Below are positions 5,570 to 42,568 of a stretch of 57,083 bases of DNA, one piece after another. A program made the translations under genes and the position numbers. The notes beneath the pieces are model-generated. The model worked only from the letters and a program-made list of their open reading frames with translations, had not been told where the DNA came from and did not search any database. The stretch is from Archaeoglobaceae archaeon (lineage in GTDB: Archaea; Halobacteriota; Archaeoglobi; Archaeoglobales; Archaeoglobaceae). How positions within the stretch are numbered: position 1 is the stretch's first letter; the number at the start of each line of letters is the position of its first letter. The DNA is taken from the NCBI GenBank assembly GCA_030153385.1, contig JASKJN010000002.1, positions 1 to 57,083 of the forward strand, in the 5' to 3' direction.

Positions 5570-5576
5570 CTCATTT

Positions 5577-7239: not shown

Positions 7240-7318
7240 GATCTCAGCTTAATCGCAAAGTTAAAAGCTTTGCCATTTTTCCTATTTCAAATTTTTAATG
7301 CTTTCCTTTGACTTCGAT

Positions 7319-7330
7319 AAGTTTAAAAAT
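7319..7330 (+). promoter_or_regulatory. TATA-like promoter of cfbC
   Basis: The stretch aagtttaaaaat lies about 25 bases before the GTG at 7350. That spacing suits a leaderless transcript beginning at the GTG, and it argues against the upstream TTG at 7308, which would lie before the TATA box. Confidence 0.5.
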
Positions 7331-7349
7331 TCCCTCTCGAAGCAGAAAC

Positions 7350-8605: not shown

Positions 8606-8634
8606 GAAGTGAGTTTTAAAAAAGTATAAAAAAT

Positions 8635-10302: not shown

Positions 10303-10312
10303 TTAAATCACC

Positions 10313-12113: not shown

Positions 12114-12118
12114 GATAG

Positions 12119-13450: not shown

Positions 13451-13508
13451 ATATCCACCCCCTTTTTTTGGATTTCACAACGCTTCTGCATTCTTTAGAC
13501 CGCACACA

Positions 13509-13527
13509 AGTTTAAATATTTTTCCCA
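13509..13527 (-). promoter_or_regulatory. Promoter of the mcrBDCGA operon (TATA/BRE)
   Basis: On the minus strand a purine-rich BRE-like gggaaa is followed by aatatttaaa, an archaeal TATA box. Transcription would start about 25 bases downstream, near 13485, leaving a leader of about 35 bases that contains the strong ribosome site before mcrB. The 221-base region 13451-13671 is shared with the divergent MMP2 gene, which has its own TATA (cctttttaa, about 13642-13650). Confidence 0.6.
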
Positions 13528-13671
13528 TTTTTTCCAGCCCATATTCAGACCTTAATGTAAAATTCGAATATTTCTAAATTTTATTTCGGTTTTAAATTAT
13601 AACAGTCTATTAACACGAAAGAACACTTTGAATTCCAAAAACCTTTTTAAGCCACACCTGAATTAAAGCCG

Positions 13672-21024: not shown

Positions 21025-21215
21025 CACATCACCCATAGTATGGTCTCTAAAACTTGATATAACTTTTTCCATTTTGCCATAATATTGCCCTTGTTGGGGA
21101 ATTTTTATTTTGAGTTTTCCTAATTATACTATTGATTTGTACATTCGGATTAGTTGAGAAGCAATAGGAGACAAATACCGAAATGAGAATATATCACCTT
21201 TCCTAAACTAGCGCT

Positions 21216-22613: not shown

Positions 22614-23135
22614 GTGGACATAAACAGATGGATCTCCTCCCTGATTTTGAGCGAAAACTTTGGAGAAGAGTTGGAAAAAATAGTGAAGAAGGGACTGAAG
22701 ATGAGCATTAGGGAATTTGCAGAAGAATCAGGAATTTCTCAAAGCACACTATACAAGCTCCTCTCAGGAGAAAGAGAACCAAATTTAAGCACTCTGAGGA
22801 AAATTGCGGAAACGATAGTTAAACTTTCGAGGAACTCGGAAGAGTTTATTGCAGTCATAGCATCGAGATCTGCGCTTAATCAGCTCACGAGCTACGAAGT
22901 AGACATTGAAGGTAAGAAAATTAAGGTTAAAGAATATCCTGCAAACTCTTTTGATGAAGCTGTTGTTTCTGCAGTCAGAGCGGAGAGAGATGGCGCAAAG
23001 GCATTGGTCTGTGCCCCGATCCTGAGCCCTTTACTTGAGAAAATTCTGAGCATTCCGATCGTTACGATAATACCTAAAAACGATCTTCTCGATTCGATAA
23101 AAATTGCAGCAAAAAAGGGGTTTTCAAAGGCTTAA
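22614..23135 (+). CDS. HTH transcriptional regulator with small-ligand-type C-terminal domain
   Basis: This 173-residue protein starts at a GTG and has a Cro/C1-type helix-turn-helix (SIREFAEESGISQSTLYKLL, about residues 32-51), followed by a domain with DEAVVSAVRAERDGAKALVC and PIVTIIPKND that resembles a Rossmann-like PrpR-N-type sensor fold. It follows the sensor kinase by 55 bases and ends tail-to-tail with the AtwA gene (four-base overlap). Position among MCR genes suggests it regulates them, but no binding site could be identified. The ligand is unknown. Confidence 0.7.
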   Translation: MDINRWISSLILSENFGEELEKIVKKGLKMSIREFAEESGISQSTLYKLLSGEREPNLSTLRKIAETIVKLSRNSEEFIAVIASRSALNQLTSYEVDIEGKKIKVKEYPANSFDEAVVSAVRAERDGAKALVCAPILSPLLEKILSIPIVTIIPKNDLLDSIKIAAKKGFSKA

Positions 23136-24868: not shown

Positions 24869-24936
24869 TGTCTTCACCTCCAGTCCCAGAAGCAATTCCT
24901 ACAGGTGTATTTATTCTTTTCCTCAGCTGGTGGTGT

Positions 24937-25077: not shown

Positions 25078-26565
25078 ATGAAGATAAAGCTCAATGGAAA
25101 TGAAGTTGACGCACCACATAATGCAGTTATTGGCGATATTCTGCCTCATGAAGAGCGTCTTGTCGCTATAATCAGAAATAGAAGAGATCAAGAAAAGCTT
25201 GTGGATACCTATAAGTTGCAAATCGGGAAGGAGACAGTAACTCTGAAAATAGAGAACAGAGAGATATGGGAAGCGATTGAAGAAAAGCTTGAGGGATTAG
25301 AGATTGCATGGAGAACAAAAAGGGTTCTTGCCCTTGGTCCTTTTTCCTGCGAGCTGAAGTGCTCAACAATTCAGCACGAATATGAGCCGGGAGAGGTCGT
25401 TCTTAGTCTTGCGGGAGGTAGTAAGGAAAGCACTTATCTTATGTTTACAGTTACAAGGTATCCAATTAGCCACTGCACTATCGCAGATGGGGTTGTTGGA
25501 AGAGTAATTGAGGGTTTTAGAGCTCTAAGAACACTCGAAATTGGTGATAAAATCGAAAAGATAATACCAGTTTTTGGCAGGGATACTTCTGGTACCAAGA
25601 TTAGGGCCAAAGGAGACGATAGACTTCTCGAGGGGGACGAAATTTATACCAGAGCATTTATAAAACTTATAAAAGAGCTTCCAAATGCTTCTGAATATGC
25701 AATGAGTGTTTTTGAAAGAAACAACAGGGTAGAAGAGGTTACAAACACTTATATAAGATTTAAGGGTATAAAGGGAATCAAGATCGGAGAAGAAAATGCA
25801 AAAAAGAGAATGAGAGGGGCAGTTACCATAAGAAGAACTGGAAAGAATGCGGGTGACATTTACATTTACCTCCGAGATAGAATGCCTCACAAAGACCACT
25901 GTGTCGTAGGATTCGTTGAGAGTGGTATAGAGCTTCTCGAAATCGCTCAGAAAGGGGATAGGATAAATATTCTTACGGATCCAAGCAAAATCGATCTTGT
26001 CGGCTTAACTCAGGCGGAAGCACAAGAATTGCTTGCCAAAAAAGGATTGAAGCAGGTTAGAGAAGGAGATAAAGAAGATAACGCTGTTGTAGTATCGCAG
26101 TTGCCAGAGACGACCTTTGAAATTTTATCGAGAGGAGAAGTTGCCACTTTCGGCGTTAGCCCGAATAAAATCGTTAAGGTAAAGATATTCGACGATGTCG
26201 CTCCAAAAACCGCTCAATATTTCAGAATTGCATCTGGACTTGTAGGAAAAAAAGTTGGAAAGCTTCCGCTATATTTCAAAACAAAAGATCTTGCGATTTT
26301 CAAACCGAATATTTCCTTCGATGAACCTCTAATTCCTGAAAACACCCCAAAGGGGAGCGTAAATGCTGGTGAAATCGGAATTACGAACATGTCCAGAAAA
26401 CACGCAGGACTTATAGGTGTGAGGTTTAGTGAGAGTAAGGAATTCGGGCCTACTGCAGAGCGTTTTGAGTCTACGAACATCGTGGGCTTAGTTTTGGAGA
26501 ACCTTGAAGTCGTCAAGGCGTCAAGAGAAGGAGATAATATTTACATAGTAGAGGTGGAAAGATGA
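25078..26565 (+). CDS. Methanogenesis marker protein 3 (UPF0288)
   Basis: This 495-residue protein matches marker 3, found across MCR-bearing archaea and, from published work, associated with the MCR activation complex. The start at 25078 (MKIKLNGNEVDAPHNA) follows a TATA box at leaderless spacing; a longer open frame to 24868 is antisense to atwA and unlikely. Conserved blocks include the Cys pair CELKCSTIQHEY (about 95-105) and ISHCTIADGVVGRV. A C-terminal part (VKIFDDVAPKTAQYFRIASG) resembles a cyclophilin-like barrel. It is the first gene of a five-gene marker operon and overlaps the next gene by four bases. Confidence 0.9.
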   Translation: MKIKLNGNEVDAPHNAVIGDILPHEERLVAIIRNRRDQEKLVDTYKLQIGKETVTLKIENREIWEAIEEKLEGLEIAWRTKRVLALGPFSCELKCSTIQHEYEPGEVVLSLAGGSKESTYLMFTVTRYPISHCTIADGVVGRVIEGFRALRTLEIGDKIEKIIPVFGRDTSGTKIRAKGDDRLLEGDEIYTRAFIKLIKELPNASEYAMSVFERNNRVEEVTNTYIRFKGIKGIKIGEENAKKRMRGAVTIRRTGKNAGDIYIYLRDRMPHKDHCVVGFVESGIELLEIAQKGDRINILTDPSKIDLVGLTQAEAQELLAKKGLKQVREGDKEDNAVVVSQLPETTFEILSRGEVATFGVSPNKIVKVKIFDDVAPKTAQYFRIASGLVGKKVGKLPLYFKTKDLAIFKPNISFDEPLIPENTPKGSVNAGEIGITNMSRKHAGLIGVRFSESKEFGPTAERFESTNIVGLVLENLEVVKASREGDNIYIVEVER

Positions 26566-27341
26566 AGGTTCGCTATTTTGTCCTTTCGCCAGACGCAGGC
26601 ACAACGCCGGAAGAACTCGTTTTTAGGATCATTGAATCAGGCTTCAACGGGATTGTAAAGGAAACCTGCTTTGGAGCCATCGTGGAGGGCGAAGATCTGG
26701 AGGTTGACAAACTAGCTGAAAGGCTCAGAAAAGAATATTACTATGTTTTCTCCAAGGAAAGAGGATATCCCATCGGAGATAAAAGAATCTGCAGAGCGGA
26801 ACGTGGTGGAGGGGCGAGAACTGGATTTTATCAGATCGAATACGAGTCTGAGTTTCTACCACTGCTTTCAGAGGCGTTAAAAGATTTTAAAATTGAAAGA
26901 GCAAAAAATCCGAAGAAGGTAATCGTTCACCCGATAAACAGCCTTATTCTTGCGGATCTGATCGAAAGAAGTGGACACCAACCACTAACAATGATGGCAG
27001 AGATCCGTAAACTTGTCAGAAATCCTGAAATCGATGCACCGCCGAGAAATATAACAACAGAAGACGTAATAAGGGGCCTGAAGTATGCATCCATAGAAAT
27101 GCCCTCTGGAATAAGAGGCAGACTCGGAGTTTGGGATGAGCTTATACAGAGTGCTGAAGCGGGATTAATTGCGAATTACGAATACGCATTCGGATGTGCT
27201 GGTTGCACGCACAACGATGTGCTGATATACTTAATAAAATCGAAGGGCATTCCATTTGTAAAGCTGAACCTCCCTAAAACCTATGAAGAGGCGAGAAAAT
27301 TCGTTGAAGAAATTTTCAGCTTTTTAAAAACTCTGGGGTGA
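26562..27341 (+). CDS. Methanogenesis marker proteins 6 and 5, fused
   Basis: This single 259-residue frame contains two marker proteins that I know as separate neighbouring genes in classical methanogens. Residues 1-115 match marker 6 (KETCFGAIVEGE, FSKERGYPIGDKRICRAERG). From about residue 120 the sequence matches marker 5 (IVHPINSLILADLIERSGHQ, SIEMPSGIRGRLGVWDELIQ, AFGCAGCTHNDVL). The joint is a short linker (ERAKNPKKV) without a stop. Functions are unknown; their strict occurrence with MCR suggests maturation or activation. The Cys residues in CAGC could bind a metal or cluster. It overlaps MMP3 by four bases and is followed by MMP15 after four bases. Confidence 0.87.
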   Translation: MKVRYFVLSPDAGTTPEELVFRIIESGFNGIVKETCFGAIVEGEDLEVDKLAERLRKEYYYVFSKERGYPIGDKRICRAERGGGARTGFYQIEYESEFLPLLSEALKDFKIERAKNPKKVIVHPINSLILADLIERSGHQPLTMMAEIRKLVRNPEIDAPPRNITTEDVIRGLKYASIEMPSGIRGRLGVWDELIQSAEAGLIANYEYAFGCAGCTHNDVLIYLIKSKGIPFVKLNLPKTYEEARKFVEEIFSFLKTLG

Positions 27342-30164: not shown

Positions 30165-31061
30165 ATGATAGATGTGAACACTGGATTGGGGCTCGTTGCA
30201 CTAATGGGTGCAGCAGCCACCATTGCTGGAGCAGCAGAAGACCTCGAAAGTGATATTGGTTCCCAGAGCAATCCGAATTCTCAGGTTCAGTTAGCACCGC
30301 AGGTCGGAGTTCTACACAGAATCTTCAACAAGGCAATTTCAGGAGAGCCACCCGCTTATGCATTCTATTCGAGCATCGCTGCAACCGTGGCTTGGATTCT
30401 GATGAACGTAAACTTCAACATAATCGCAGCATTCGCAATTGGAGCATTCGTCGCATCGATTTTCCACGGGATCTACGCAAGCACCGCTTATATTGGAAGG
30501 CTTGCAAGTCAAAGGAGATACGGACAGCCGATATACCTGGACGTGATTTACAACCATCTCCCACCGATCATGGCTCATGGCTTTGTTGCCACTTTCTGCA
30601 TTCTCGGACTTTCTTACATCCTCTGGCATTACTTTGAGCATCCATTCCCGTTCGTAATGCTCGCATTCATCTGGGGAATAACAGTGGGAGCAATCGGTTC
30701 GTCAACTGGAGATGTGCATTATGGTTCTGAAAGAGAATATCAGAACAAACCCTTCGGCGCTGGTTTAAACGCTGCGTTATCGGGCAAAATCGTGACTAAG
30801 GCAGAAATAGGGACGAGAAGCAGTATAGACAACGCATGGTTCTGCGCCAAATTCGGAGGACCTGCAACTGGAATAACCTTTGGCCTGATAGTCTTCCTTG
30901 ACAACTGGAGGACTCTCGTTTTCGATCAGTTCATGGCGATCGTCGTAGGTTTTGTGATCGTTGCGCTTTTGATCGTTGCTAACTGGCTCCTCGAAGTCTG
31001 GGCAAGAAAGAATTACGGGCCTTATCCCGAGAAGCTTGCAATGCTTGAAGGAGGTGCTTGA
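30165..31061 (+). CDS. mtrE: Tetrahydromethanopterin S-methyltransferase subunit E
   Basis: MtrE is one of the large membrane subunits (298 residues, about six hydrophobic segments) of the Mtr complex, which transfers the methyl group from methyl-tetrahydromethanopterin to coenzyme M and pumps Na+. Diagnostic stretches include GAAEDLESDIGSQSNPNSQV and GSSTGDVHYGSEREYQN. It leads mtrEDCBAFGH, the same order as in methanogens, with a strong ribosome site. Confidence 0.96.
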   Translation: MIDVNTGLGLVALMGAAATIAGAAEDLESDIGSQSNPNSQVQLAPQVGVLHRIFNKAISGEPPAYAFYSSIAATVAWILMNVNFNIIAAFAIGAFVASIFHGIYASTAYIGRLASQRRYGQPIYLDVIYNHLPPIMAHGFVATFCILGLSYILWHYFEHPFPFVMLAFIWGITVGAIGSSTGDVHYGSEREYQNKPFGAGLNAALSGKIVTKAEIGTRSSIDNAWFCAKFGGPATGITFGLIVFLDNWRTLVFDQFMAIVVGFVIVALLIVANWLLEVWARKNYGPYPEKLAMLEGGA

Positions 31062-31062
31062 A

Positions 31063-31752
31063 ATGGACCCGATAACTATAATTCTTGGTCTAATCATTGC
31101 GGGCATTCTGATCGTTATCGGAGTTCATCTAATCCCGGTAGGCGGAGCTCCTGCAGCGATGGCGATGGCCACCGGTGTTGGAACTGGTACAGTTCAGCTC
31201 GCAACTGGCGCTGGGCTAACTGGGCTGGTTAGCGCGGGATACATGTACCACTTTGCGAATGTTCCGATAAGCTATGTTCTGCTTAGCGGTGCGGTTGGAA
31301 GCATGCTCATGCTCGGAATTACAATGCTTGTAGGAAACGTGGTATACATCTTTGGTGTGGGGGTTCCCCCGGTTTCAGCCAAGGTAAAGTTCGACCCGAT
31401 AACAAAGTACAGACAGGACATCTATGTGTCTCCAGGCACAGAAGGCCATGGAATTCCGACAGTTTCCTATGTCAGTGGGATAATTGGAGCATTCCTGGGT
31501 GGCGTTGGAGGTGCATTGACTTATGTTCTGCTAAATGAACTTGGCATATCTTCAGCAATCTCTGCTTTCATTGCGATAGGTTTCTTCCTCGCAAATGCTG
31601 TTCTCGCAGCCTACAACATTGCTGGAACTATCGAGGGATTCCATGATCCCAAGTTCAAGAGGTTGCCGAGGGCTATAGTTTCGAGCCTGATCGTTTCGGG
31701 CTTCATCGCAATCATATTGGTCTTTGCCACTAGTGGAGGTGTTGCACTGTGA
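31063..31752 (+). CDS. mtrD: Tetrahydromethanopterin S-methyltransferase subunit D
   Basis: MtrD is a membrane subunit of about 229 residues. The start is the ATG at 31063, two bases after the mtrE stop and preceded by GGAGGTG; a longer frame into mtrE exists but is out of register with the family. Features include the glycine-rich segment IPVGGAPAAMAMATGVGTGT and GHGIPTVSYVSGIIGAF. It is predicted to form, with C and E, the Na+-translocating part. It overlaps mtrC by four bases. Confidence 0.95.
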   Translation: MDPITIILGLIIAGILIVIGVHLIPVGGAPAAMAMATGVGTGTVQLATGAGLTGLVSAGYMYHFANVPISYVLLSGAVGSMLMLGITMLVGNVVYIFGVGVPPVSAKVKFDPITKYRQDIYVSPGTEGHGIPTVSYVSGIIGAFLGGVGGALTYVLLNELGISSAISAFIAIGFFLANAVLAAYNIAGTIEGFHDPKFKRLPRAIVSSLIVSGFIAIILVFATSGGVAL

Positions 31753-32558
31753 CGGTCTCTTCTTGTAATGCGAAGGCTGAAGCTGTTGAGGAGAAGAAGA
31801 TCTCGAACAACCTTATTATGGCTCTTGGCATTGTTGTTCCGCTGATAGGGATATATTTGGCATCGACTAACAGCCTCTTCGCTTTCCTCGGTGGAATAGC
31901 GATCATATTTGCAACGCTCTGGGGGGCAAATGGAGTCAGAACAGTGGCAAAATACGGCATAGGTACCGGTGTTCCCTCAGTAGGAATGGTTGCTCTTGGA
32001 GCTGCAGTTGCTGCAGTTGTGGTAGGTATTTACTTTGCAAGCAAAACCGTTTTACTTGCACCGGTTCTTGCGCTGATCTTCGCACTGCTCACGGGATTGC
32101 TCATAGGTCTGTCCGCGAGATATATTCTGAAGATGAACATTCCTGTGATGGTTCGCTCCATGACCGAGATATGCGGTGCTGGATCGCTGCTAATTCTTGC
32201 CCACGTAACAACGATAACGGGTTCATTCGATCTGCTTCATCTGAAGAGCTTATCTGAGACGGGGATTGTGCTTTTAGTATTCATAATCGGAGCTCTTAGT
32301 ATATTGCATCCATACAACGCTTGTCTTGGCGCGGACGAGAGACAGGGGAGGACACTAAAGCTATCTTTGGCAACAGGAAGTGCTCAGGTGATTTTAGCTG
32401 GGATAGCATCTCTGTATTTCATAGGACTCCCGGGAATGCTGACACTGCTTTTTGGCGCACTTGCATGGTTCGTAACTTACAGCATGTTCGTTAGAACGTC
32501 TTTTGAGGAGGGAATTGTTATGAATACTGGGCTCATACCGGAGGTTGAGCACAAATGA
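31749..32558 (+). CDS. mtrC: Tetrahydromethanopterin S-methyltransferase subunit C
   Basis: MtrC is a 269-residue membrane subunit starting at a GTG that overlaps the mtrD stop. It has about eight hydrophobic segments, and the conserved block ILHPYNACLGADERQGRTLK lies near residue 190-210. It completes the C/D/E membrane core of the sodium pump. It overlaps mtrB by four bases. Confidence 0.95.
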   Translation: MTVSSCNAKAEAVEEKKISNNLIMALGIVVPLIGIYLASTNSLFAFLGGIAIIFATLWGANGVRTVAKYGIGTGVPSVGMVALGAAVAAVVVGIYFASKTVLLAPVLALIFALLTGLLIGLSARYILKMNIPVMVRSMTEICGAGSLLILAHVTTITGSFDLLHLKSLSETGIVLLVFIIGALSILHPYNACLGADERQGRTLKLSLATGSAQVILAGIASLYFIGLPGMLTLLFGALAWFVTYSMFVRTSFEEGIVMNTGLIPEVEHK

Positions 32559-32851
32559 CGTTCGCAAAAGTTTCTTCTGAACCAGGTTTAGTGCTGGATG
32601 CAGTTAAAGGAGTTATTGGTGAAGAGAGAGAAGACCTGATCTTCTATCCACTCTCAGACATTGAGGAAGCGGTGAAGAAGCTTGAGGAAATTGCAGATGA
32701 TCTTGTAAACTCACTCGATCCGCTCAAGAACTTTAGAGCTTCATATCAGGGAAGAAACAAGAGCCTTTACTACGCGGGAATGACAACGGGAATCTTCTAC
32801 GGACTTGTTGTTGGGCTGATCATAGCCTTCTTAATTGCATGGGTGATGTGA
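32555..32851 (+). CDS. mtrB: Tetrahydromethanopterin S-methyltransferase subunit B
   Basis: MtrB, 98 residues, has a hydrophilic N-terminal part and a single C-terminal transmembrane helix (IFYGLVVGLIIAFLIAWVM). The DLVNSLDPLKNFRASYQGRN stretch is a family signature. It overlaps mtrC by four bases and is followed after one base by mtrA. Confidence 0.93.
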   Translation: MTFAKVSSEPGLVLDAVKGVIGEEREDLIFYPLSDIEEAVKKLEEIADDLVNSLDPLKNFRASYQGRNKSLYYAGMTTGIFYGLVVGLIIAFLIAWVM

Positions 32852-32852
32852 T

Positions 32853-33581
32853 ATGGTGAACAAGGTAGAACCTGCTCCCGGATGGCCGAAGATTAAGGGA
32901 GAATACTTGGTTGGCGATCCGAAAAGCTGTGTTGTTGTAGCGACTCTTGGAAGCCATCTTGACGAGAAAAAGATAATCGAAGCTGGAGCGGGAATGGCAG
33001 GGATATGCAAGACAGAGAATATAGGAATTGAAAAAATGGTCGCAAATATAATCGCAAATCCGAATATAAGATTCCTGATCCTGTGCGGGGCTGAAGTCAC
33101 CGGACATTTGACTGGAGATGCGATAGTAAACCTGCACAAGAATGGTGTGAAGAACAACAGGATAGTGGGTGCCAGAGGTGCAATCCCATATGTTCAGAAT
33201 CTCCCAGCAGAGGCCATAGAGAGGTTCAGAAAGCAAGTTGAGATCGTTGAGATGATAGGAGTCGAAGATCTGTCTGCGATAACAGCAAAGGTAAAAGAGT
33301 GTATCTCAAAGGATCCCGGAGCATTTCCAGAACCACCGATGATCGTGGAGATAAAGGAGGAGGGCAAAGAAGAAATTGCGGAAGGCGAGATGTTTCCCAT
33401 CCCCGGAGAGATCGCAAACATAGAATCTTGGGTCAGAGATCTCGAGCTTAAAGTGAAAGAAGTTGCTTTGCTGAACAAGTTCTCCGCTGGAGTGTATGCG
33501 GGAAGATTCCAAGGATTCTGGATTGGGCTAACCTTGGCAATGTTTGTTCTTGGAATTTTGATGTGGAGGGCGGGATTATGA
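32853..33581 (+). CDS. mtrA: Tetrahydromethanopterin S-methyltransferase subunit A
   Basis: MtrA is the corrinoid-carrying subunit. The 242-residue protein has the cobalamin-binding motif CGAEVTGHLTGDAI with His85, equivalent to the cobalt-ligand His84 of Methanothermobacter. A single C-terminal helix (FWIGLTLAMFVLGILMW) anchors it to the membrane. This full-length anchored form differs from soluble MtrA-like proteins found outside methanogens and argues for a real Na+-pumping complex. The stop overlaps mtrF in an ATGA. Confidence 0.97.
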   Translation: MVNKVEPAPGWPKIKGEYLVGDPKSCVVVATLGSHLDEKKIIEAGAGMAGICKTENIGIEKMVANIIANPNIRFLILCGAEVTGHLTGDAIVNLHKNGVKNNRIVGARGAIPYVQNLPAEAIERFRKQVEIVEMIGVEDLSAITAKVKECISKDPGAFPEPPMIVEIKEEGKEEIAEGEMFPIPGEIANIESWVRDLELKVKEVALLNKFSAGVYAGRFQGFWIGLTLAMFVLGILMWRAGL

Positions 33582-33778
33582 GCGGATTTCCGAAAATAAT
33601 GAAACCAAAAGCTGTGAAAATAGGCGAGATCGTTGGGAGAACCGAGTATAGCGCACAGCTTATTGCAAGAACACAAAAACTCGAATCGGGAGTGAACATG
33701 GCTGGTCTGACAGGCTTTGTTCTGGGGCTAATTTTCGCACTGCTATTGGTTCTGATCCCATTGCTCTGGGTGGGGTGA
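33578..33778 (+). CDS. mtrF: Tetrahydromethanopterin S-methyltransferase subunit F
   Basis: MtrF is a 66-residue subunit with an N-terminal soluble part resembling the end of MtrA and one transmembrane helix (FVLGLIFALLLVLIPLLW). The start at the ATG of the ATGA overlap is preferred over a longer frame that begins inside mtrA. It sits between mtrA and mtrG as in methanogens. Confidence 0.88.
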   Translation: MSGFPKIMKPKAVKIGEIVGRTEYSAQLIARTQKLESGVNMAGLTGFVLGLIFALLLVLIPLLWVG

Positions 33779-33782
33779 TCTG

Positions 33783-34010
33783 ATGGATAAAAAAGAGAAG
33801 GAAATTCCAAGAGCTTATGTCGACACCTCAGAATACTTGGCCCTACTGGAAAGAATAAAGAAGATTGAAGAGAAAGTGGAGTTCTTCCAGGCAGAGGTTG
33901 CACAGCAAGTAGGCAAAAAAGTCGGCAGAGATATCGGAATACTTTACGGGCTTGTTTTTGCCCTGATTATGGTGGTTATTTACCTTTTGCTTAAGGCTCC
34001 ATGGGGGTGA
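33783..34010 (+). CDS. mtrG: Tetrahydromethanopterin S-methyltransferase subunit G
   Basis: MtrG is a 75-residue subunit with an amphipathic helix (RIKKIEEKVEFFQAEVAQQ) and a C-terminal transmembrane helix (GLVFALIMVVIYLLL). A GGGTGA-type site in the mtrF tail precedes its ATG. It is followed by mtrH after four bases. Confidence 0.9.
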   Translation: MDKKEKEIPRAYVDTSEYLALLERIKKIEEKVEFFQAEVAQQVGKKVGRDIGILYGLVFALIMVVIYLLLKAPWG

Positions 34011-34014
34011 GAAT

Positions 34015-34950
34015 ATGTTCAAATTCGAGAAGGAACAGATGGTGTTTGAATTTGGAAAGATAAAGGTTGGCGGTCAGCCTGGCGAATATCCGCCAGTGCT
34101 TGCAGGAACGATATTCTACAAGGGACATAAGATCGTAAGCGACGACCACAAGGGGATTTTTGACAAGGACAAAGCTGAAGAGCTCTGGAAAATGCAGCAG
34201 GAATTCTCGGATCTCACTGGGATTCCGTGCATGCTTCAGATAGTTGGAGAATCAAGCGAAGCGATGCAGAAATACATAGAGTGGTTTGCAAACATCTCTG
34301 ACGCTCCCTTCCTCATCGACTCAACCGATCCTCAGGTTAGAATTGCAGGCGCAAAATTCGCAGATGAGATCGGAGTCCATGACAGGGCGATCTACAACTC
34401 GATCAATCCCAGCCTCACACCTCAGGAGGTTGAGGCACTTAAGGCAAGCAAGATGGACTCAGCAATAGTCCTAGCTTTCAATCTAACAGACAACACAGTT
34501 AAGGGCAGGCTTGAAATCCTGCAGAAAGGTGGAGCGGGATTGAGCAAGGGACTTCTTGACATCGCTTCTGAATGTGGTATAAAGAGAATCCTGATTGACG
34601 TAGCAGCAACTCCCCTCGGAGCGGGAGCGGGAGCAACCTTCAAATCGGTAATGGCTGTGAAAGCTAAGCTTGGTCTACCAGCAGGGGGAGCACCGCACAA
34701 CATTCCATCCGCATGGCCATGGATTAAAAAGCTGAAGAAAGAAAGGAAGGAAGTCTTTCCGCCTGCAGACATAGGCTCCAATCTGATAATGCAAATGCTC
34801 GGAGCGGACTTCCTGCTCTACGGACCAATAGAAAATGCTCCATTGATCTTCCCAAGCACCGCCATGGTTAGCATAATCGTTTCTGAGGCTGTGTCAGAAC
34901 TTGGAGTAACCGTAAAATGTGAGACCCATCCAATAAAGAGGCTCGTCTAA
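34015..34950 (+). CDS. mtrH: Tetrahydromethanopterin S-methyltransferase subunit H
   Basis: MtrH is the soluble TIM-barrel subunit that takes the methyl group from methyl-tetrahydromethanopterin and passes it to the corrinoid of MtrA. The 311-residue protein has the family features PPVLAGTIFYKGHKIVSDD, APFLIDSTDPQVRIAG and YNSINPSLTPQEVEAL. It is a member of the canonical mtr operon, not one of the extra MtrH copies paired with methylamine-type corrinoid proteins. It is followed by cfbA after 10 bases. Confidence 0.97.
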   Translation: MFKFEKEQMVFEFGKIKVGGQPGEYPPVLAGTIFYKGHKIVSDDHKGIFDKDKAEELWKMQQEFSDLTGIPCMLQIVGESSEAMQKYIEWFANISDAPFLIDSTDPQVRIAGAKFADEIGVHDRAIYNSINPSLTPQEVEALKASKMDSAIVLAFNLTDNTVKGRLEILQKGGAGLSKGLLDIASECGIKRILIDVAATPLGAGAGATFKSVMAVKAKLGLPAGGAPHNIPSAWPWIKKLKKERKEVFPPADIGSNLIMQMLGADFLLYGPIENAPLIFPSTAMVSIIVSEAVSELGVTVKCETHPIKRLV

Positions 34951-34960
34951 AGGTGCAGAA

Positions 34961-35377
34961 ATGAAGGATGCGGTAGCGTTGCTCATTGGACACGGAAGCA
35001 AACTCGATATTCAGAAGAAAATGATTGAAAGACTTGCAGAGAGTGTGAAAAGCAGAAAGATTTTCGCTGAAGTCTTCTATGCGTTCATGAACGTAAACAA
35101 GCCAACTATACGGGACGCTATGACCGATATCGTTAGAAAGGGCTACAGGAAGGTCATAGCAATTCCCGTATTTCTTTCCGAGGGAGTGCATACTACAGAA
35201 GACATACCAAAAGAACTCGGTCTTAAGAATGGCCAGAGAGAAGGAGTTGTGGAGTTCGATGGAGTGGAAGTAAAGATACTATATGCACGAACAATCGGCT
35301 ACGATGACAGAATAGCAGAAATACTTGTAGAAAGGGGGAAGGAAGCAGTTGAGAATTCGAAGGAATTTTTCAGGTAG
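34961..35377 (+). CDS. cfbA: Sirohydrochlorin nickelochelatase
   Basis: CfbA inserts nickel into sirohydrochlorin, the first committed step to F430. This 138-residue short-type CbiX chelatase has the metal-binding His residues in LIGHGSK (His10) and PVFLSEGVHTTEDIPKELG (about His76), plus the ARTIGYDDRIAEIL C-terminal motif. A cobalt chelatase for cobamide is the alternative, but co-location with mtrH and with cfbB-E in the same window favours the nickel role. With cfbB, C, D and E, the window encodes the full F430 pathway from sirohydrochlorin. Confidence 0.9.
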   Translation: MKDAVALLIGHGSKLDIQKKMIERLAESVKSRKIFAEVFYAFMNVNKPTIRDAMTDIVRKGYRKVIAIPVFLSEGVHTTEDIPKELGLKNGQREGVVEFDGVEVKILYARTIGYDDRIAEILVERGKEAVENSKEFFR

Positions 35378-35424
35378 AGTTACTTTTTTAAACAAGCCTT
35401 TAATTAATTTTTTGAGGTGATAAC

Positions 35425-36720
35425 GTGGCTGAGGTTAAAGAAATCCCCAAATCAGACTGGGCTGTCCATAGATATTTGTACACAAGAGATATCTCTAACG
35501 CACCCGTGATAAACCTGCTTTTAAAACAAGTCGATGTGATCTACCAGCCAAGAAACGAAAGAGAAGTATTAGAGGTTCTCAGAATAGCAAAGGAAGAGGG
35601 GGCAACTGTAGTCCCGAGAGGTGCTGGAACTTCTGGTTATGGGGGGGTTCTGCCCGTCAAAGATATAGCCCTACTACGCCTATCGAGACGAAAAACTATT
35701 ATGATCGATTTTACACGGATGGACGATTTCGAGATCGACGAGGAGAAGCGGTTAATCGAATGTTCTCCTGGAGCGGTCTGGTGGGAAGTAGAAAAAAAGC
35801 TGAACAAAAAAGGCCTTACACTTAGAGTCTATCCCACGAGTGCACCCTCTTCAACGGTCGCTGGATGGATAGCCCAGAATGGTTACGGAGTTGGAAGCCT
35901 GAAATATGGAGGAATTGCGGAAAATGTTGAAAAGCTCAGAGTTGCGGACTTCAGCGGTGTTAAAGAAGTCGAAGGAAAGGATTTGAAATATTACATTGGG
36001 ATGGAGGGCATAACAGGAGTCATAACTAAAGCATGGGTCAAAGTGAAGGAAATGGAAGAAATGAAATACTATGGATTCCACGTCTCTGCAAAAGAGGCAA
36101 ATAAAATCGTTTTCGCCGGAGATCACTATGCAGGGCTTTTCCTTGACAGTAACTATGTGAAGCTGAAAAATGAAGCTTTTGGAACCGAATTGCCAGAGAA
36201 AGACACATTGATGGTTGCAACTACTGAAAAACTGGATGGAGATGAAAGTCTCGGTGAAGAGATCTGGGAGACGAGATTTTACCCAATGAGAGTCAGAAGA
36301 CTTGGCCCCGGTTTGGTGGCAGCTGAAAATGTCCTACCCGCAGAGTCGATTCCTGCCTATTTGAATAAACTAAACAAGATGATAAAGAAGCCACATGGTA
36401 GCGAGATATGGTATTCCAAGGGGAGGAAGGGCGCGGTTCTTAGCTTCATTCCATCGGATGAGAGGAAATTCTTCAGCTATGCTTTCACCTGGTTCAACAG
36501 CATCAGAGCTTTGAAGCTCGCTAAGAGCATGAGAGGTGTTCCGTATTCCACGGGCTTTTATCTGAGCTCTGAAGCTAAGCTGCTTTTCGGTGGCGATTAT
36601 TCAGAGCTAAGGGAGTATAAGAGAAATGTGGATCCGAAAGGACAGCTAAATCCTGGAAAGGTGTTTCCCGTTGGAGTGTTTCCGCTTGCAATGGGGATTC
36701 TCCAGAAGGTGATACCATGA
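35425..36720 (+). CDS. FAD-linked oxidase (GlcD/D-lactate dehydrogenase-like)
   Basis: This 431-residue flavoprotein has the FAD_binding_4 (PCMH) domain in its first 200 residues (VVPRGAGTSGYGGVLP, YPTSAPSSTVAGWIAQNGYG) and a C-terminal FAD-oxidase domain ending in VDPKGQLNPGKVF. Relatives oxidise 2-hydroxy acids such as D-lactate or glycolate. It starts at a GTG with a GAGGTGAT site. The four-base overlap with the following HdrD-like gene shows they form a complex. In MCR-bearing and alkane-oxidising archaea similar pairs have been proposed to link flavin chemistry to heterodisulfide or quinone pools. The substrate cannot be read from sequence. Confidence 0.88.
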   Translation: MAEVKEIPKSDWAVHRYLYTRDISNAPVINLLLKQVDVIYQPRNEREVLEVLRIAKEEGATVVPRGAGTSGYGGVLPVKDIALLRLSRRKTIMIDFTRMDDFEIDEEKRLIECSPGAVWWEVEKKLNKKGLTLRVYPTSAPSSTVAGWIAQNGYGVGSLKYGGIAENVEKLRVADFSGVKEVEGKDLKYYIGMEGITGVITKAWVKVKEMEEMKYYGFHVSAKEANKIVFAGDHYAGLFLDSNYVKLKNEAFGTELPEKDTLMVATTEKLDGDESLGEEIWETRFYPMRVRRLGPGLVAAENVLPAESIPAYLNKLNKMIKKPHGSEIWYSKGRKGAVLSFIPSDERKFFSYAFTWFNSIRALKLAKSMRGVPYSTGFYLSSEAKLLFGGDYSELREYKRNVDPKGQLNPGKVFPVGVFPLAMGILQKVIP

Positions 36721-37883
36721 AATTTGAAAAAGAGTTAGAGGACATGATACATGCCTGCGCTCAGTGCTTCTACTGCAGAGTCTGCCCCGCATTCCAGTCG
36801 ATAAAATGGGAAAGTGTATCGCCCAGGGGAAGAGTTTACATGCTTAAAGGGCTGAAGAACAAGAAGATAAAGCTTGAACCTCAGCTAGTGGAGGATTTTT
36901 ACAAGTGCACAACCTGCGGTGCATGTGAAGAGCAGTGTCAGACAGCGTTGCATCTTGTTGATCTCTGGGAGATGGCAAGAGCAGAAATGGTTAAGGAAGG
37001 TTTAGCCCCTTTGCCTGTTCATAAAAAGCTGAGAGAGCTTGCATTACAGACAGATAATCCTTACGGCGAACCAAAAGAGAAAAGGGAGGACTGGATCAAG
37101 GGCTACAAATATGAGGAAAATGCGGAGATAATGTATTTTGCAGGCTGCACTGCAAGCTTCAGGGCAGTGGAACTCGCAAAAAACACCGTTGATTTGTTCA
37201 ACAAGGTTGGACTGAAGTTTGCATACGCTGGAAAGAACGAATACTGCTGTGGTTCTCCTTTCCTGAGGACTGGACAGAGAGATGTTGCTTACGGACTCTT
37301 CAGGAAGAATTACGAGGAGTGGAAGAAGAGAGGAGTTAAGACAATAGTTTCGAGTTGTGCGGGCTGTTACAGGACGATACTCATAGACTATCCAAAGATT
37401 GCAAAGGAACTTGGCCTGGAGTGGAACTTTGAAGTCCTTCACACTTCTCAGCTTGTGAACAAGCTCATAAAAGAGGGAAAACTCTCTCCACAGAAGTTCT
37501 CTGCGAAGGTTACCTACCACGATCCATGCCACTTGGGAAGACACACGAAGGTATACGAGGAACCAAGAGAGGTGATAAAGGCAATTGGTGCAGAGTTGGT
37601 GGAGATGGATAGAAATAGGGGGGAATCTTTCTGTTGCGGTTCAGGTGGAGGAGTCAAGTCCCAATTCAAGGACCTTGCTGGTGCTATTGGAAAGAACAGA
37701 ATTCTGGAGGCGAAGGAAACCGGAGCGGAATACCTCATTTCTTGCTGTCCGTTCTGCAAGTATCATCTGAAGCAGATGGCGGATGAGCAGGGCGTACAGA
37801 TTAAGGTGGTCGATTTGGTGGAGATCGTCAATAATTTGGCTGTGAAGGGAGAATACAAGGGAGATGATATTCGATGTGCTTAA
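36717..37883 (+). CDS. HdrD/GlcF-like iron-sulfur protein with two CCG domains
   Basis: This 388-residue protein has two N-terminal [4Fe-4S] motifs and two CCG domains. The first cluster motif reads CAQCFYCRVCP (residues 14-23), with only two residues before the fourth Cys instead of the usual three. The second is CTTCGACEEQC. CCG motifs appear at NEYCCGSPF with SSCAGC, and HDPCHLGRH with FCCGSGGG and CCPFC. HdrD uses such CCG domains to bind the noncubane clusters that cleave the CoM-S-S-CoB heterodisulfide. With the flavoprotein partner it could be a heterodisulfide reductase or a lactate-type dehydrogenase subunit. No membrane segment is seen. Confidence 0.88.
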   Translation: MKFEKELEDMIHACAQCFYCRVCPAFQSIKWESVSPRGRVYMLKGLKNKKIKLEPQLVEDFYKCTTCGACEEQCQTALHLVDLWEMARAEMVKEGLAPLPVHKKLRELALQTDNPYGEPKEKREDWIKGYKYEENAEIMYFAGCTASFRAVELAKNTVDLFNKVGLKFAYAGKNEYCCGSPFLRTGQRDVAYGLFRKNYEEWKKRGVKTIVSSCAGCYRTILIDYPKIAKELGLEWNFEVLHTSQLVNKLIKEGKLSPQKFSAKVTYHDPCHLGRHTKVYEEPREVIKAIGAELVEMDRNRGESFCCGSGGGVKSQFKDLAGAIGKNRILEAKETGAEYLISCCPFCKYHLKQMADEQGVQIKVVDLVEIVNNLAVKGEYKGDDIRCA

Positions 37884-37904
37884 TTTTAATTTTTGGTGAT
37901 CTCT

Positions 37905-38639
37905 ATGGAAGTTTCTGAACTGAGAGAAAAAGCTAAGGAGCTCAGGGAAATTCTGGGACTTAGAAGCTACCCTGTTGGTGTGAAGCTATCTCCAAAGCGT
38001 CTTGAAATAGATGCAAAAAGACTGAAGGGCTATCGATACTGTCAGGCATTGATGCGTGCAAGAAGGGGGGATCATGTGATTCTTGGAAAGGAAGAAATCG
38101 GCTGTGCAGCTTCTGCAGCTGTATTTGGTTTCAAAGAACTTCCCGAAGGATTTAAGACGGGTGAACATACTTTAAAGATCGGGATAGCCAAGGATCCTTC
38201 TGTTGGGAGCAGGATATACGCAGAAGTCGAATCCTTTAAACCTGGGGAGATTGGGGATCTCTATCTCTTCCCTCTCGAGACCGCAATTATGGAACCGGAT
38301 GTTGTGGTGGTTGAAGATCAGCCAGAGAAGCTGATGTGGATTCTCCTAGCATGTGTAAATGTGAATAAAGGAGAGAGAGTTGACCTGAGCTCTGCAGTAA
38401 TGAGGGCAACATGTTTGGACTGCACAGCAATACCACACAAGAGACAGACAGTAAATATCAGCCTCGGTTGCTTTGGCTGCAGAATGGCTACCGATATAGG
38501 CGACGATGAGGCTCTGATCGGATTTCCATACAAGTTCTTTGGCGATGTCGTTGATTATGTGAAATACTTCTCGCAAAATGCAATTCCAAGTGCAAGAGAT
38601 AAGAAGGCATACAAGGCACTGAAGGCAAAAGAGGTTTGA
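37905..38639 (+). CDS. DUF169 family protein
   Basis: This protein of about 244 residues matches DUF169 proteins, which have no assigned reaction. The ATG at 37905 has a GGTGATC site at good spacing, better than the TTG at 37893. Conserved Cys residues occur in GYRYCQALMRA, EIGCAASAA and the cluster CLDCTAIPH / SLGCFGCR, enough to bind an Fe-S cluster or heme. It overlaps the NifB-like gene by four bases, so translation of the two is probably coupled. DUF169 proteins are common in methanogens and anaerobes; a link to metal-cofactor or MCR maturation is suggested only by position. Confidence 0.8.
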   Translation: MEVSELREKAKELREILGLRSYPVGVKLSPKRLEIDAKRLKGYRYCQALMRARRGDHVILGKEEIGCAASAAVFGFKELPEGFKTGEHTLKIGIAKDPSVGSRIYAEVESFKPGEIGDLYLFPLETAIMEPDVVVVEDQPEKLMWILLACVNVNKGERVDLSSAVMRATCLDCTAIPHKRQTVNISLGCFGCRMATDIGDDEALIGFPYKFFGDVVDYVKYFSQNAIPSARDKKAYKALKAKEV

Positions 38640-39508
38640 AAATGAAAGAAGAAACTTGGGGAAAAGTAGGGAGCAAATTCGCCCATCTTACATCAGCCCA
38701 TCCATGCTACAGTCACGATGCTCATTTTAAATTCGCGAGGATTCATCTTCCCGTTGCCCCAAGATGCAATATTCAGTGCGGTTACTGTACGAGAAAGATA
38801 GACAAATGCGAATACCGCCCCGGCGTATCTGCATGCATTGTGAATGCTGAGGATGCTTTGAAAAGAGTTGAAGAAGCGAGAAAGAATTATCCGCTGAAAG
38901 TTGTTGGAATTGCTGGCCCGGGAGAGGTTCTTGCAAATGAGGAATCTTTCAAAACTCTGAAGCTCGTTCACGAGAAATATCCCGAGCTAATACTCTGCAT
39001 AGCTACAAATGGGCTTCTTTTGGCTGATAAAATTGAGGAGCTAGACAGAATTAATGTAAAGACTGTAACCGTTACGATCAATGCCCTTAACCCAGAAATA
39101 GGAGCAAAGATCTACGAGTGGGTTGAATACAACGGAGAAAGGCTGGATGGTATCGATGGAGCAAAACTGCTGATAGAGAAACAGCTTGAAGGTGTGAAAG
39201 TCTCTGCTGAAAAAGGAATGGCGGTTAAGATAAATACGGTGCTAATTCCGGGTTTAAATGAGGGAGAGATTGAGAAGATAGCATTTGAAGCCAAGAAAAG
39301 AGGAGCATTTATAATGAACATAATTCCCCTCATCCCGCTCCACAGATTTAAAGATTTGAGAAAGCCCACCTGTGAAGAGCTTGAAGAAGCAAGAGAGAAG
39401 GCATCAAAGCATTTGAGGATTTTCAGGCTTTGCAGGCAGTGCAGAGCGGACGCATGCGGAATTCCCGGAAAGGAAAGAGCGGTAGGAAGCACATACTTCC
39501 ATGGTTAG
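38636..39508 (+). CDS. nifB: NifB-like radical SAM enzyme
   Basis: This 290-residue enzyme has the NifB signature. HPCYSHDAHFKFARIH leads into the radical SAM motif CNIQCGYC (Cys44, 48, 51), followed by CEYRPGVSAC. The C-terminal CRQCRADACG (residues 266-275) supplies further cluster ligands. NifB fuses two [4Fe-4S] clusters around a carbide to make the [8Fe-9S-C] precursor of nitrogenase cofactor. It lacks the NifX-like tail, as archaeal NifB often does. No nitrogenase structural genes are in the window. I recall recent structural work reporting such carbide clusters in the MCR activation complex, which would explain its place among MCR genes. It overlaps MMP14 by eight bases. Confidence 0.9.
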   Translation: MKMKEETWGKVGSKFAHLTSAHPCYSHDAHFKFARIHLPVAPRCNIQCGYCTRKIDKCEYRPGVSACIVNAEDALKRVEEARKNYPLKVVGIAGPGEVLANEESFKTLKLVHEKYPELILCIATNGLLLADKIEELDRINVKTVTVTINALNPEIGAKIYEWVEYNGERLDGIDGAKLLIEKQLEGVKVSAEKGMAVKINTVLIPGLNEGEIEKIAFEAKKRGAFIMNIIPLIPLHRFKDLRKPTCEELEEAREKASKHLRIFRLCRQCRADACGIPGKERAVGSTYFHG

Positions 39509-40949
39509 ATTATCTCTTTTTTCTTCCAAACCACGAATTGCGAGAAGCGAATTCATTTCATTGCACAGAAAAGCAGATGGGGCTTCGATGGAAGCAGGAG
39601 GAGTTACACTTTTCATCGTTGCATCCGTTGAAGTTGGAAACACTACGACGAAATGCATTCTAACTGGAACAGATCTTGCAACAGGAAAGACGTACCTTGT
39701 GAATAAGGTCGTGAAGCTTACCCGAAGTGTGCGAAAACCGAGGATTGGTGAAGAGATATTCGGAGAAACAATTTTTGGTGTCCCTCTGACAAGACAGTCT
39801 GTTGCGGAGATTGTCAGTGAATGTATAAAAGAGTCCTGCAACAATGCTGGAATAAGCGTTTCACAAATTGACTTCGTTGTGCGATCAACTGGTGTAGTCG
39901 CGCACTTTGAAAATCCAGAAGATATAGGAACTTTCATTCAAGCTTTGGCTGATGGAACACTCATTGCCGGAGTTCCTCCTAGCAGAATGGTTCCAGCAGT
40001 TACGAAGGAAAATCTTCCAGAGAAGTTAAGGAAGTTCAGTCTCCTCGACAGAGTCTTCTTTGATGGCTCAGTGGCAGGTATGCTTCCACCAAGAGGATCA
40101 ACAGGAGCGGAGATCGTTGCAAATGAGATGGAAGGAGAATTATCTACTGCGGGAATAAAAGAGGGGGCTAAGTGGACTGACGTTGACTTCAGAAATCCAT
40201 GCATTTCAATGGATTTTGGCACAACTTTCAAAGGAAGGATAACGAACGACGATCTTCCTTATGCAAGAACTGTCGGAAACTTCTGTGGACTTGGCGGAGC
40301 AATAGCGGATGTATTGACAAGAGGCTACCTCGGAAACAGAGAATCCGCAGCAATCGATTTAAAGTCCGCTGGAGACTATAATATTGGAGAGGAGGCGGTT
40401 GAGTTTGCCGAAGAAATTTTAAGGTATATAAGGGTTGAAAGGGTTCCCTCAAACAGCAGAAGATTTGGCAAGATTCCGGTGAATGCGAAAGCTGCGAAAG
40501 ATGCTGGAATATTGCTTGTTGGATGCGATGTTGGGGAAAACGGAAGCAAATTTGAGGAGCTCGAAAAAATAGGAGCTGAAATAAAAGATGTAAAGCTTCT
40601 GCTTGCAACTATCGATGTTTTGATGGCAAAAATATTCAGAAGAGTTGTAGAAACAATAAGTGCGGAGGGATTATTCACGGATAAAATGGCGATCGGAGTC
40701 ACAGGGAGAGCGGGAATAACTGGAAAGAAACCCTGGCTTTTTCTTAAAGAACTTAAGGACCTTGGCCTTTATAAAAAGCCAGAAAAGAACATAGTTTTCG
40801 TTGATGATGGCTTAGCAAGGGGGGCGGCGGTGATGGCAAGATGCATGAATGCTCTCGGAAATCCAAAAAATCCCATAGGCGGTTTGAGGTTTGGTCATTG
40901 TGTGCTTGCTGAAAGAATAAAATTGCAATCCCGCTATTTCACTTCCTGA
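39501..40949 (+). CDS. Methanogenesis marker protein 14
   Basis: This 482-residue protein matches marker 14. An ASKHA-type beginning (VASVEVGNTTTKCILTGTDL) is followed by the conserved FVVRSTGVVAHFENPEDIG, ALADGTLIAGVPPSRM and FFDGSVAGMLPP blocks. It resembles distantly the MMP15/BadF group in its phosphate-binding loop, so ATP binding is plausible. The first ATG (39501) overlaps nifB by eight bases; a second in-frame ATG at 39588 is possible and would begin just before the conserved domain. It ends in a 16-base tail overlap with the convergent second atwA copy. Confidence 0.88.
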   Translation: MVRLSLFSSKPRIARSEFISLHRKADGASMEAGGVTLFIVASVEVGNTTTKCILTGTDLATGKTYLVNKVVKLTRSVRKPRIGEEIFGETIFGVPLTRQSVAEIVSECIKESCNNAGISVSQIDFVVRSTGVVAHFENPEDIGTFIQALADGTLIAGVPPSRMVPAVTKENLPEKLRKFSLLDRVFFDGSVAGMLPPRGSTGAEIVANEMEGELSTAGIKEGAKWTDVDFRNPCISMDFGTTFKGRITNDDLPYARTVGNFCGLGGAIADVLTRGYLGNRESAAIDLKSAGDYNIGEEAVEFAEEILRYIRVERVPSNSRRFGKIPVNAKAAKDAGILLVGCDVGENGSKFEELEKIGAEIKDVKLLLATIDVLMAKIFRRVVETISAEGLFTDKMAIGVTGRAGITGKKPWLFLKELKDLGLYKKPEKNIVFVDDGLARGAAVMARCMNALGNPKNPIGGLRFGHCVLAERIKLQSRYFTS

Positions 40950-42568
40950 ACCTTACCGTCTTCCACAACAAATATTCTGTCCGCAATTTCCTTTACAAGA
41001 TCATGCTGGTGGCTCACAACGATCATCGTTGTTCTGTCCCTGAGGTTAATTTCCTTCAGGAAGTTTGCGACCTTTCTCAAAGTCACGGGATCAATGTCAC
41101 CAAATGGCTCGTCAAGGATCAGAATTTTTGGCTTTGTTATGGAAGCTAAAGCAATTCCAAGCCTTACCGCTTCACCACCGGAAAGCTCGTGGGCTTGGCG
41201 CTCGAGAATCTCCGCTGGCAGATTCAATCTTTCAAGCACTGGATATATCCTGCTCAGATCTTCTGAGCTATCAGGAAATAGCTCCTTTATTATCCCATAA
41301 GGCAGTCCCAATCTTCTCAGTCTGACCTCTGCTTCTTCCCTTGGAAGATCGGTGAGTCTATAAATTGCGTCGAAAAGACTTTCGCTGATTCCAAGCTGTT
41401 CTGCCTTTTTCATAGCTTCCTCAACCGCACTCTCCCTCTTTATCCTTATCTTGTAAGATACGAGCTCGCTTACCTTTGCCCAGAATGGCAAAGCGAATTC
41501 TTGGTGAAGAATCCCGATCTTTCTTCTGACCTCAACGCTCCTCTTTCCAAACTTGTTAAAATCCACCCATTTTCTCTCGGGTCTTAACATTACCCTGCCC
41601 TCGTCTGGCAGTTCAAGACCGCTGATCAACCTTGTGAGAACAGTTTTCCCACTTCCACTTCTCCCTATGAAACCAACGATCTCTCCCCTTCTGATTGAGA
41701 ATGAGACATTCTTAAGATCCAGCGTCTGACCACCTGGGACTACGTAATATCTCTTCCTGACGTTTTCGAGCCTTATCACTTCTCCGCCTATTCTCTTCTT
41801 TTTCATCAACGGCGGTTCGAGTTCTTTAAGGAACTTCGAAACCATCTCCTCCGCATCACCTTCATCCACAACTTTTCCCTTCTCCATAAGCACGACTCTG
41901 CTCGCAAGCTCCCTGTGAATTTCTGGCATATGCGAGCAGAAAAGAACAGTCATCCCAAGCTCTCTGTTAATTCTCTTAATCGTTTCTATCGCCTTTTTTC
42001 TTGTCTCGGGACATGTCATTGTTCCGAATTCGTCCAGTAGCAAAATTGAAGGTTTTTTTGCAAGCTGTCTTGCAAGTATTAGCCGTTGCTTTTCCCCACC
42101 ACTTAGTATTTCAGCCCAGCACTCAGCCTTGTGTTTCAGATCGACTATTTCAAGAAGTTTCATCGCATCCTCGCGAAGTTCCTCGTATAAAACTTCATCC
42201 CAATCAGGCAATACTTCCTCGCCTAGCCTTCGGTAAGCCAAGGCCCTGATCACATTCTCTACAACTTTCTCACTCCAGAGTCCAAAGGAACGCTGAAGGT
42301 GGATCGCCGTTTTCTCCATTACATTTCTGAAGTCACTTTTGGAAGATTCGGGTGTAAGTCGAAGTCCATCAATTACAACCTCGCCTCCATCGAACCTTTC
42401 CGCCCCCCTCAGAATTCTCAGCAAAGTTGTCTTTCCGCTTCCGCTTTTTCCGAGTAATCCAACTAATTCTCCTCTTCTAACCTCAAGATGATCTATTTCA
42501 AGAGCTTTCAGCGTTTTTCCACTGCTGAGCGTATAGTTCTTGACGAGGTTGCGGACTTCGACGATCAT
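40934..42568 (-). CDS. AtwA-like double-ABC ATPase (second copy)
   Basis: This 544-residue double nucleotide-binding protein is a paralogue of component A2. Walker A loops are GKSGSGKTT and GRSGSGKTV; signatures are LSGGEKQRLILARQ and LSGGEAVRLGIALA. It lacks the four-Cys zinc insert seen in the first copy. In its first domain the usual DEPTGTLDP is changed to DEFGTMTCP, losing the D-loop Asp and the Pro, whereas the second domain (DEPFGDIDP) is normal. One ATP site may therefore be weakened. It is the third gene of a DUF2284-MMP8-atwA2 unit on the minus strand. Many methanogens also carry two A2-like genes. Function is presumed to be MCR activation or repair. Confidence 0.86.
   Translation of the reverse strand: MIVEVRNLVKNYTLSSGKTLKALEIDHLEVRRGELVGLLGKSGSGKTTLLRILRGAERFDGGEVVIDGLRLTPESSKSDFRNVMEKTAIHLQRSFGLWSEKVVENVIRALAYRRLGEEVLPDWDEVLYEELREDAMKLLEIVDLKHKAECWAEILSGGEKQRLILARQLAKKPSILLLDEFGTMTCPETRKKAIETIKRINRELGMTVLFCSHMPEIHRELASRVVLMEKGKVVDEGDAEEMVSKFLKELEPPLMKKKRIGGEVIRLENVRKRYYVVPGGQTLDLKNVSFSIRRGEIVGFIGRSGSGKTVLTRLISGLELPDEGRVMLRPERKWVDFNKFGKRSVEVRRKIGILHQEFALPFWAKVSELVSYKIRIKRESAVEEAMKKAEQLGISESLFDAIYRLTDLPREEAEVRLRRLGLPYGIIKELFPDSSEDLSRIYPVLERLNLPAEILERQAHELSGGEAVRLGIALASITKPKILILDEPFGDIDPVTLRKVANFLKEINLRDRTTMIVVSHQHDLVKEIADRIFVVEDGKVQEVK

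Follow-up and report, generated by a model that had tools for sequence, protein, structure and literature searches.

The stretch of 57,083 nucleotides (nt) analyzed here, hereafter the window, is contig C47 of an Archaeoglobaceae genome of 1.4 Mb that is 95% complete (G000). It carries a run of five plus-strand open reading frames (ORFs) placed directly after cfbA, a gene of F430 synthesis, and the subject of this work is the conservation and the likely meaning of this run in an archaeon with methyl-coenzyme M reductase (MCR). A preliminary description, made from the letters of the sequence, had reported five same-strand genes with overlaps or short gaps and had named them FAD oxidase, HdrD-like, DUF169, NifB-like and methanogenesis marker 14 (MMP14). 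The coordinates are exact, the profile scans agree with the five identities, and the intergenic spacings from cfbA onwards are +47, -4, +9, -4 and -8 nt, that is, from -8 to +9 nt within the run itself. The features of the region are the following.

30165..34950, plus strand: mtrE, D, C, B, A, F/G-like small ORFs and H, upstream of cfbA
34961..35377, plus strand: cfbA, sirohydrochlorin nickelochelatase, first step of F430 synthesis (NF033198, 129.5 bits, cut-off 120)
35378..35424, plus strand: gap of 47 nt between cfbA and the flavoprotein gene, with T6 twice and a Shine-Dalgarno-like GAGGTG ahead of the GTG start
35425..36720, plus strand: FAD-binding_4 (VAO-type) flavoprotein, 431 aa (FAD_binding_4, E 1.9e-29)
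36717..37883, plus strand: HdrD/TfrB-type Fe-S protein, 388 aa (Fer4_8 and two CCG stretches, E 4.9e-39)
37893..38639, plus strand: DUF169 (COG2043) protein, 248 aa (DUF169, E 1.9e-49)
38636..39508, plus strand: NifB-like radical SAM core without NifX domain, 290 aa (NifB, E 7.3e-89)
39501..40949, plus strand: MMP14 (DUF2114), 482 aa (TIGR03285, E 2.2e-186)
40934..42568, minus strand: second A2/AtwA-like double ABC ATPase (A2b), outside the plus-strand run (TIGR03269, 297 bits, below the 517 cut-off)

The five genes continue a same-strand series, mmp3-mmp6/5-mmp15-mmp17-mmp7-mtrEDCBA-(FG)-H-cfbA, that begins at 24868 and in which methanogenesis markers 6 and 5 form one fused ORF (26562-27341). 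Judging from this layout, a transcript that could reach the run would likely start at the mtr genes, and we infer that the five genes may be transcribed together. The T-runs of the cfbA-flavoprotein gap are likewise present in three other members of the genus (G003, G007 and G009) and are a possible archaeal terminator or attenuator. At its distal end the run meets the A2b gene, which is convergent with MMP14 and overlaps it by 16 nt.

The gene order is carried by the MCR-bearing members of one Archaeoglobaceae genus (the Candidatus Methanomixophus / Methanoglobus clade). It is complete in G003, G007 and G009, and it is kept in G006 and G002 as far as the contigs extend, which together with the window genome gives six members of the MCR clade; in named records it is found in WYZ-LMO2, SKYB18 and JZ_75_SW_bin_109 (Archaeoglobi/Archaeoglobaceae/Archaeoglobales). 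The five proteins are 66-91% identical to those of the window in G003, G007 and G009, and up to 95% identical in G006. Between members of the genus the synonymous divergence (dS) is saturated or incalculable and the nonsynonymous divergence (dN) is 0.05-0.24; therefore the arrangement is old and its genes are under purifying selection. The run is present in G002 (73% complete), where McrG was not found, and neither McrG nor a NifB of the type found in the run was detected in four other genomes of the genus (G001, G004, G005 and G008).

Beyond the genus, gene neighborhoods were counted across the phylum in a draw of 148 genomes; two genes were scored as a pair when both lay within 8 kb, and the denominator was the number of genomes with both. 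MMP14 and NifB are paired in 4 of 92 genomes, MMP14 and DUF169 in 4/62, and DUF169 and NifB in 4/64, all of them from this genus, and among 80 named MMP14 loci other genes of the run stand beside MMP14 in the three named genus records alone. Conservation of the order across MCR-bearing archaea was thus not borne out, and a five-gene system common to these archaea was discarded, given that it did not recur outside the genus among those tested; the operon-like arrangement proposed in the preliminary description does hold within the genus. In contrast, two links with cfbA recur independently: cfbA and DUF169 are within 8 kb in 14 of 62 genomes, and cfbA and NifB in 7 of 82, in three families in each case. 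For instance, the order DUF169-cfbA-cfbE-cfbD-cfbB is found beside mcrB in L121, L258 and L273, cfbA adjoins DUF169 in L257 and L272, and it adjoins NifB in L264 and L265. The run is made up of known families rearranged at the level of one genus, and its order is real and old.

Two further loci were considered and set aside. In G041 (L263) HdrD adjoins NifB, but an HdrE-like cytochrome b (Nitrate_red_gam) is encoded ahead of this HdrD, which therefore looks like part of a canonical HdrDE and was not taken as an independent case; in the 13 kb of this locus (1636-14510) a single strand carries A2, mcrC, the hdrE-like gene, hdrD, nifB and cfbA-E-D-C-B, with two opposite-strand genes between nifB and cfbA. 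In G028 a NifB-like ORF of 99 aa next to a FAD/HdrD pair (L049 10294-10593) corresponds to a C-terminal NifB fragment only and was not counted; a full NifB is found elsewhere in that genome.

The first two genes of the run encode a flavin and iron-sulfur pair. HdrD has Cys sets for two [4Fe-4S] clusters (C14, 17, 20, 23 and C64, 67, 70, 74) and two complete CCG motifs (C144, 177, 178, 214, 217 and C271, 306, 307, 344, 347). The layout of [4Fe-4S] and CCG motifs is that of the thiol:fumarate reductase TfrAB, and TfrB is the best NCBIfam model for HdrD; however, the score of 250.2 bits is under the curated cut-off of 385, and TfrA is a flavin subunit of the succinate-dehydrogenase type, whereas the flavoprotein of the run is a VAO-type FAD_binding_4 protein. 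A distant similarity to GlcD (90 bits, cut-off 568) and GlcF (102 bits, cut-off 333), along with the genes of d-lactate metabolism reported for these metagenome-assembled genomes (PMC7380581), would fit a plain D-lactate/glycolate dehydrogenase of the GlcD/GlcF type; a plain lactate dehydrogenase is what the preliminary description had said would count against its own proposal. Nonetheless, the flavoprotein has neither the HxDGNxH nor the GEHG metal/substrate motif of D-2-hydroxyacid dehydrogenases, whose residues in mouse LDHD (His398, His405 and Glu442) bind metal and substrate (PMC10589216), and HxDGNxH is also missing from the other Archaeoglobi pairs of the same type. Because these motifs are absent, a canonical D-2-hydroxyacid dehydrogenase is unlikely, and the plain lactate or glycolate enzyme, discarded on the motifs, is in our view highly improbable.

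In phylogenetic trees the sister group of the pair is formed by the pairs of two Archaeoglobaceae without detectable McrG, G010 and G011, and the 4-nt overlap of its two genes is shared with other Archaeoglobi pairs. Similar FAD(glcD)/HdrD pairs have been described in Archaeoglobi and other MCR archaea; seven of them occur in Candidatus Polytropus, where a role in the oxidation of CoM-SH/CoB-SH was proposed (PMC6474303). The two-gene architecture and the two CCG motifs of HdrD are common to those pairs and the present one, which differs in being locked inside an mtr/cfb/nifB run. For Candidatus Methanoglobus hypatiae, four hdrD copies at low expression were reported, with HdrDE as the main heterodisulfide reductase (PMC10945360). 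Given that its closest relatives are in MCR-less Archaeoglobaceae, and that glcD/hdrD pairs had already been described, the pair is, as far as its sequence relationships indicate, not an MCR-specific part.

From these relationships it is quite possible, if somewhat doubtful, that a native catabolic FAD/HdrD pair was trapped while the mtr/mcr/mmp cluster was being assembled, and that the linkage reflects history and a shared promoter rather than a common function. In agreement with this, the G010 pair has unrelated neighbors (DisA-like, NikR, EamA), a second, paralogous pair is present on contig 4 of the window genome (L046), and the mtrH-FAD junction, verified by polymerase chain reaction in Candidatus Methanomixophus in 2020, was read as a boundary between methanogen and Archaeoglobaceae genes (PMC7380581, Fig. 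4). In that same work MCR was found closest to a Korarchaeota lineage (PMC7380581). On the other hand, the pair does not lie at an edge but is embedded between cfbA and DUF169-NifB-MMP14; its position and spacing have been kept through saturated synonymous divergence, and within the genus this type of pair was found only in the MCR clade. The Candidatus Methanomixophus locus belongs to the same genus-level clade and has the same junction, although the main text of that paper neither mentions NifB nor discusses the five-gene set; the earlier statement that no described system has this exact set stands for the literature searched, and needs the amendment that part of the locus had been published in 2020 (PMC7380581, Fig. 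4) and that FAD(glcD)/HdrD pairs were known (PMC6474303).

The NifB-like protein reaches 298.5 bits, below the NCBIfam equivalog cut-off of 343.65, with a match that stops at position 281 of 441 and leaves the C-terminal part of the model unmatched; solved archaeal-type NifBs are likewise of about 290 aa. Residues 13-282 align to the structures 7jmb/7bi7 (E 3e-97), and the protein retains the radical SAM CxxxCxxC (CNIQCGYC), the N-terminal HPC...H and the C-terminal CRQCRADAC. The nitrogenase-like [8Fe-9S-C] clusters of the MCR activation complex (McrC/Mmp7/Mmp17/Mmp3/A2) probably derive from NifB, which is reported to be essential even in non-diazotrophic methanogens, and in M. marburgensis an mmp cluster is followed by nifB (PMC12176620). 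Since that study ties NifB to MCR activation, its presence near mmp, mtr and cfb genes is expected. The mmp genes of the complex, mcrC and A2 lie in the same window; in contrast, the proteins reported from the purified complex, for which additional reducing factors were suggested to be missing, include none of the five (PMC12176620). A canonical A2 gene is also found in the window (23132-24895), and an AtwA (A2) paralogue directly adjoins cfbA in G046 and G159 (L268 7055-8737; L262 5626-7314). No NifB was found by protein or TIGR01290 search in G019 (95% complete) and G020 (99%), each of which has two divergent McrG copies and a clear Mmp7; should NifB be the maker of the activation clusters, no source for them is apparent in these two genomes.

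The DUF169 protein matches PF02596 with 168.8 bits (gathering score 27). Its residues C50, C71, C174 and C193 are invariant in 64 of 64 homologues, C177 is specific to the genus, and C196 is present in about a third of the homologues. In most MCR genomes of the draw this subfamily has a member that scores high, and most MCR-less ones give much lower scores, a contrast biased by a profile built with two methanogen sequences. The clade-mates of the protein, which we take to be Methanothrix-like, Methanomicrobiales-like and f14 proteins, for the most part lack telling neighbors, and in other genomes of family f5 the sister clade is found near cfbA or near genes of the Mrp/NifX-like kind. No relative was found in the PDB, and a predicted structure was set aside as unusable, with a predicted local distance difference test score (pLDDT) of 36.7 and four close sequences only. 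As the most economical guess, DUF169 would be a Cys4 cluster or metal helper. Elsewhere in the window (4059-5965) there are an Mrp-like ATPase, a NifX/FeMo-co-type small protein and a DUF134-like regulator, families assigned by eye, and similar genes neighbor DUF169 in L246, L249 and L250. A three-gene ABC transporter lies by cfbE (18448-21072), with relatives 41-51% identical near a DUF169 gene in G034 (L246 2986-5640).

MMP14 scores 619.9 bits with TIGR03285 (curated cut-off 274) and conserves the ASKHA motifs GNTTTK, DFGTT and DDGLARGAA; C448 and C467 are invariant, and C262 is kept in most homologues. A sequence search of the PDB gave no relative, and the top Foldseek matches to the predicted model were RACo (3zyy), Kae1, acetate kinase and hexokinase, all with low TM-scores; motifs and model together indicate the fold of an ASKHA (actin/hexokinase/RACo) ATPase. 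This fold is shared with RACo, one of the RACo/RamA ATP-dependent corrinoid activators, from which MMP14 differs in that no ferredoxin-like domain was recognized in it. The conserved Cys residues and the gene context suggest that MMP14 may use ATP to drive electrons onto a partner with a corrinoid or an Fe-S cluster.

MMP14 had been presented as MCR-linked; its identity as the marker holds, but MCR-linked does not describe it best. It occurs without detectable McrG in nine genomes of f8/f14/f18, with a completeness of 97% (G027), 96% (G037), 95% (G056), 94% (G064, G047 and G071) or less (G078, G083 and G098). Conversely, when McrG and MMP14 alone were compared, G041, G046, G131 and G159 had McrG and no MMP14 match. 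In all three McrG-less loci inspected (L123, L124 and L125) MMP14 is near mtrA-mtrH; L123 has the order mtrA-mtrH-(protein of ~340 aa, family not assigned)-MMP14-methionine synthase, and L124 is similar. MMP14 also neighbors mtr genes in L112, L118, L122, L127 and L159, the last a Methanoperedenaceae record. From its presence in McrG-less genomes, its absence from some with McrG and its mtr neighbors, MMP14 seems to be linked with Mtr more closely than with MCR. A function in Mtr, plausibly the reactivation of its corrinoid, is thereby favored over one in MCR only. In the literature a tie with Mtr is stated for the marker m26 (PMC9635834), which may or may not be MMP14.

The preliminary description had proposed one job for the whole set, namely that all five genes build or reduce one complex metal cluster for MCR. 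The genes are co-directional and nearly overlapping, they include NifB and an ATPase, and DUF169 and NifB recur beside cfbA; even so, we consider a single job unlikely, because the five-gene set was found nowhere else among the MCR archaea tested and because the pair and MMP14 each occur without MCR. Moreover, a flavin/CCG pair works near the heterodisulfide potential. This is far from that of free F430, quoted as ~-650 mV (PMC12176620). A metal-cofactor theme is retained for cfbA, NifB and DUF169, not for the set as one job.

Our tentative preference, to which we give not quite an even chance, is that the run is a genus-specific gathering of genes for cofactor supply and activation of MCR and Mtr, and that a native flavin/thiol redox pair sits among them. 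The run would extend the mtr/cfb series, supplying the metal cofactors of methanogenesis and maintaining their activity. NifB would provide the [8Fe-9S-C] precursor carried by the McrC/Mmp7 activation complex, DUF169 would be a Cys4 metal- or cluster-binding helper near the assembly of F430 or of complex clusters, and the ASKHA ATPase MMP14 would most likely reactivate the MtrA corrinoid at low potential in a RACo/RamA-like manner and might have a second tie, to the activation of MCR. The FAD/HdrD pair would be a native Archaeoglobaceae thiol:flavin oxidoreductase co-expressed with the run; its wiring may be TfrAB-like, running from a thiol/disulfide end with CCG noncubane clusters through two [4Fe-4S] clusters to an FAD end, and it would probably keep CoM-SH/CoB-SH reduced, or swap electrons between thiols and some organic substrate. 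The roles of DUF169 and MMP14, and the substrate and partner of the pair, are those that we infer. Several observations weigh against this proposal: the pair exists without MCR and may owe its position to hitch-hiking; the T-runs after cfbA could split the transcripts; DUF169 proteins of this type have no clear cfb or nif neighbors in other methanogens; the MMP14 model is of moderate confidence (pLDDT 66.6, low TM-scores); and in f7 genomes (L122 and L127) MMP14 is also by mmp17/mmp7 and so may have a role in MCR.

For the activation of MCR and Mtr, the reductant used in the cell and numerous accessory factors have, to our knowledge, still to be named. The recurrence of DUF169 by the F430 gene cfbA in several lineages is a useful pointer in this regard. 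MMP14, a protein commonly listed among the methanogenesis markers, is retained in genomes with mtrA/mtrH where no MCR was detected, and for this reason the hypothesis that it reactivates the Mtr corrinoid would be directly testable in genetically tractable methanogens.

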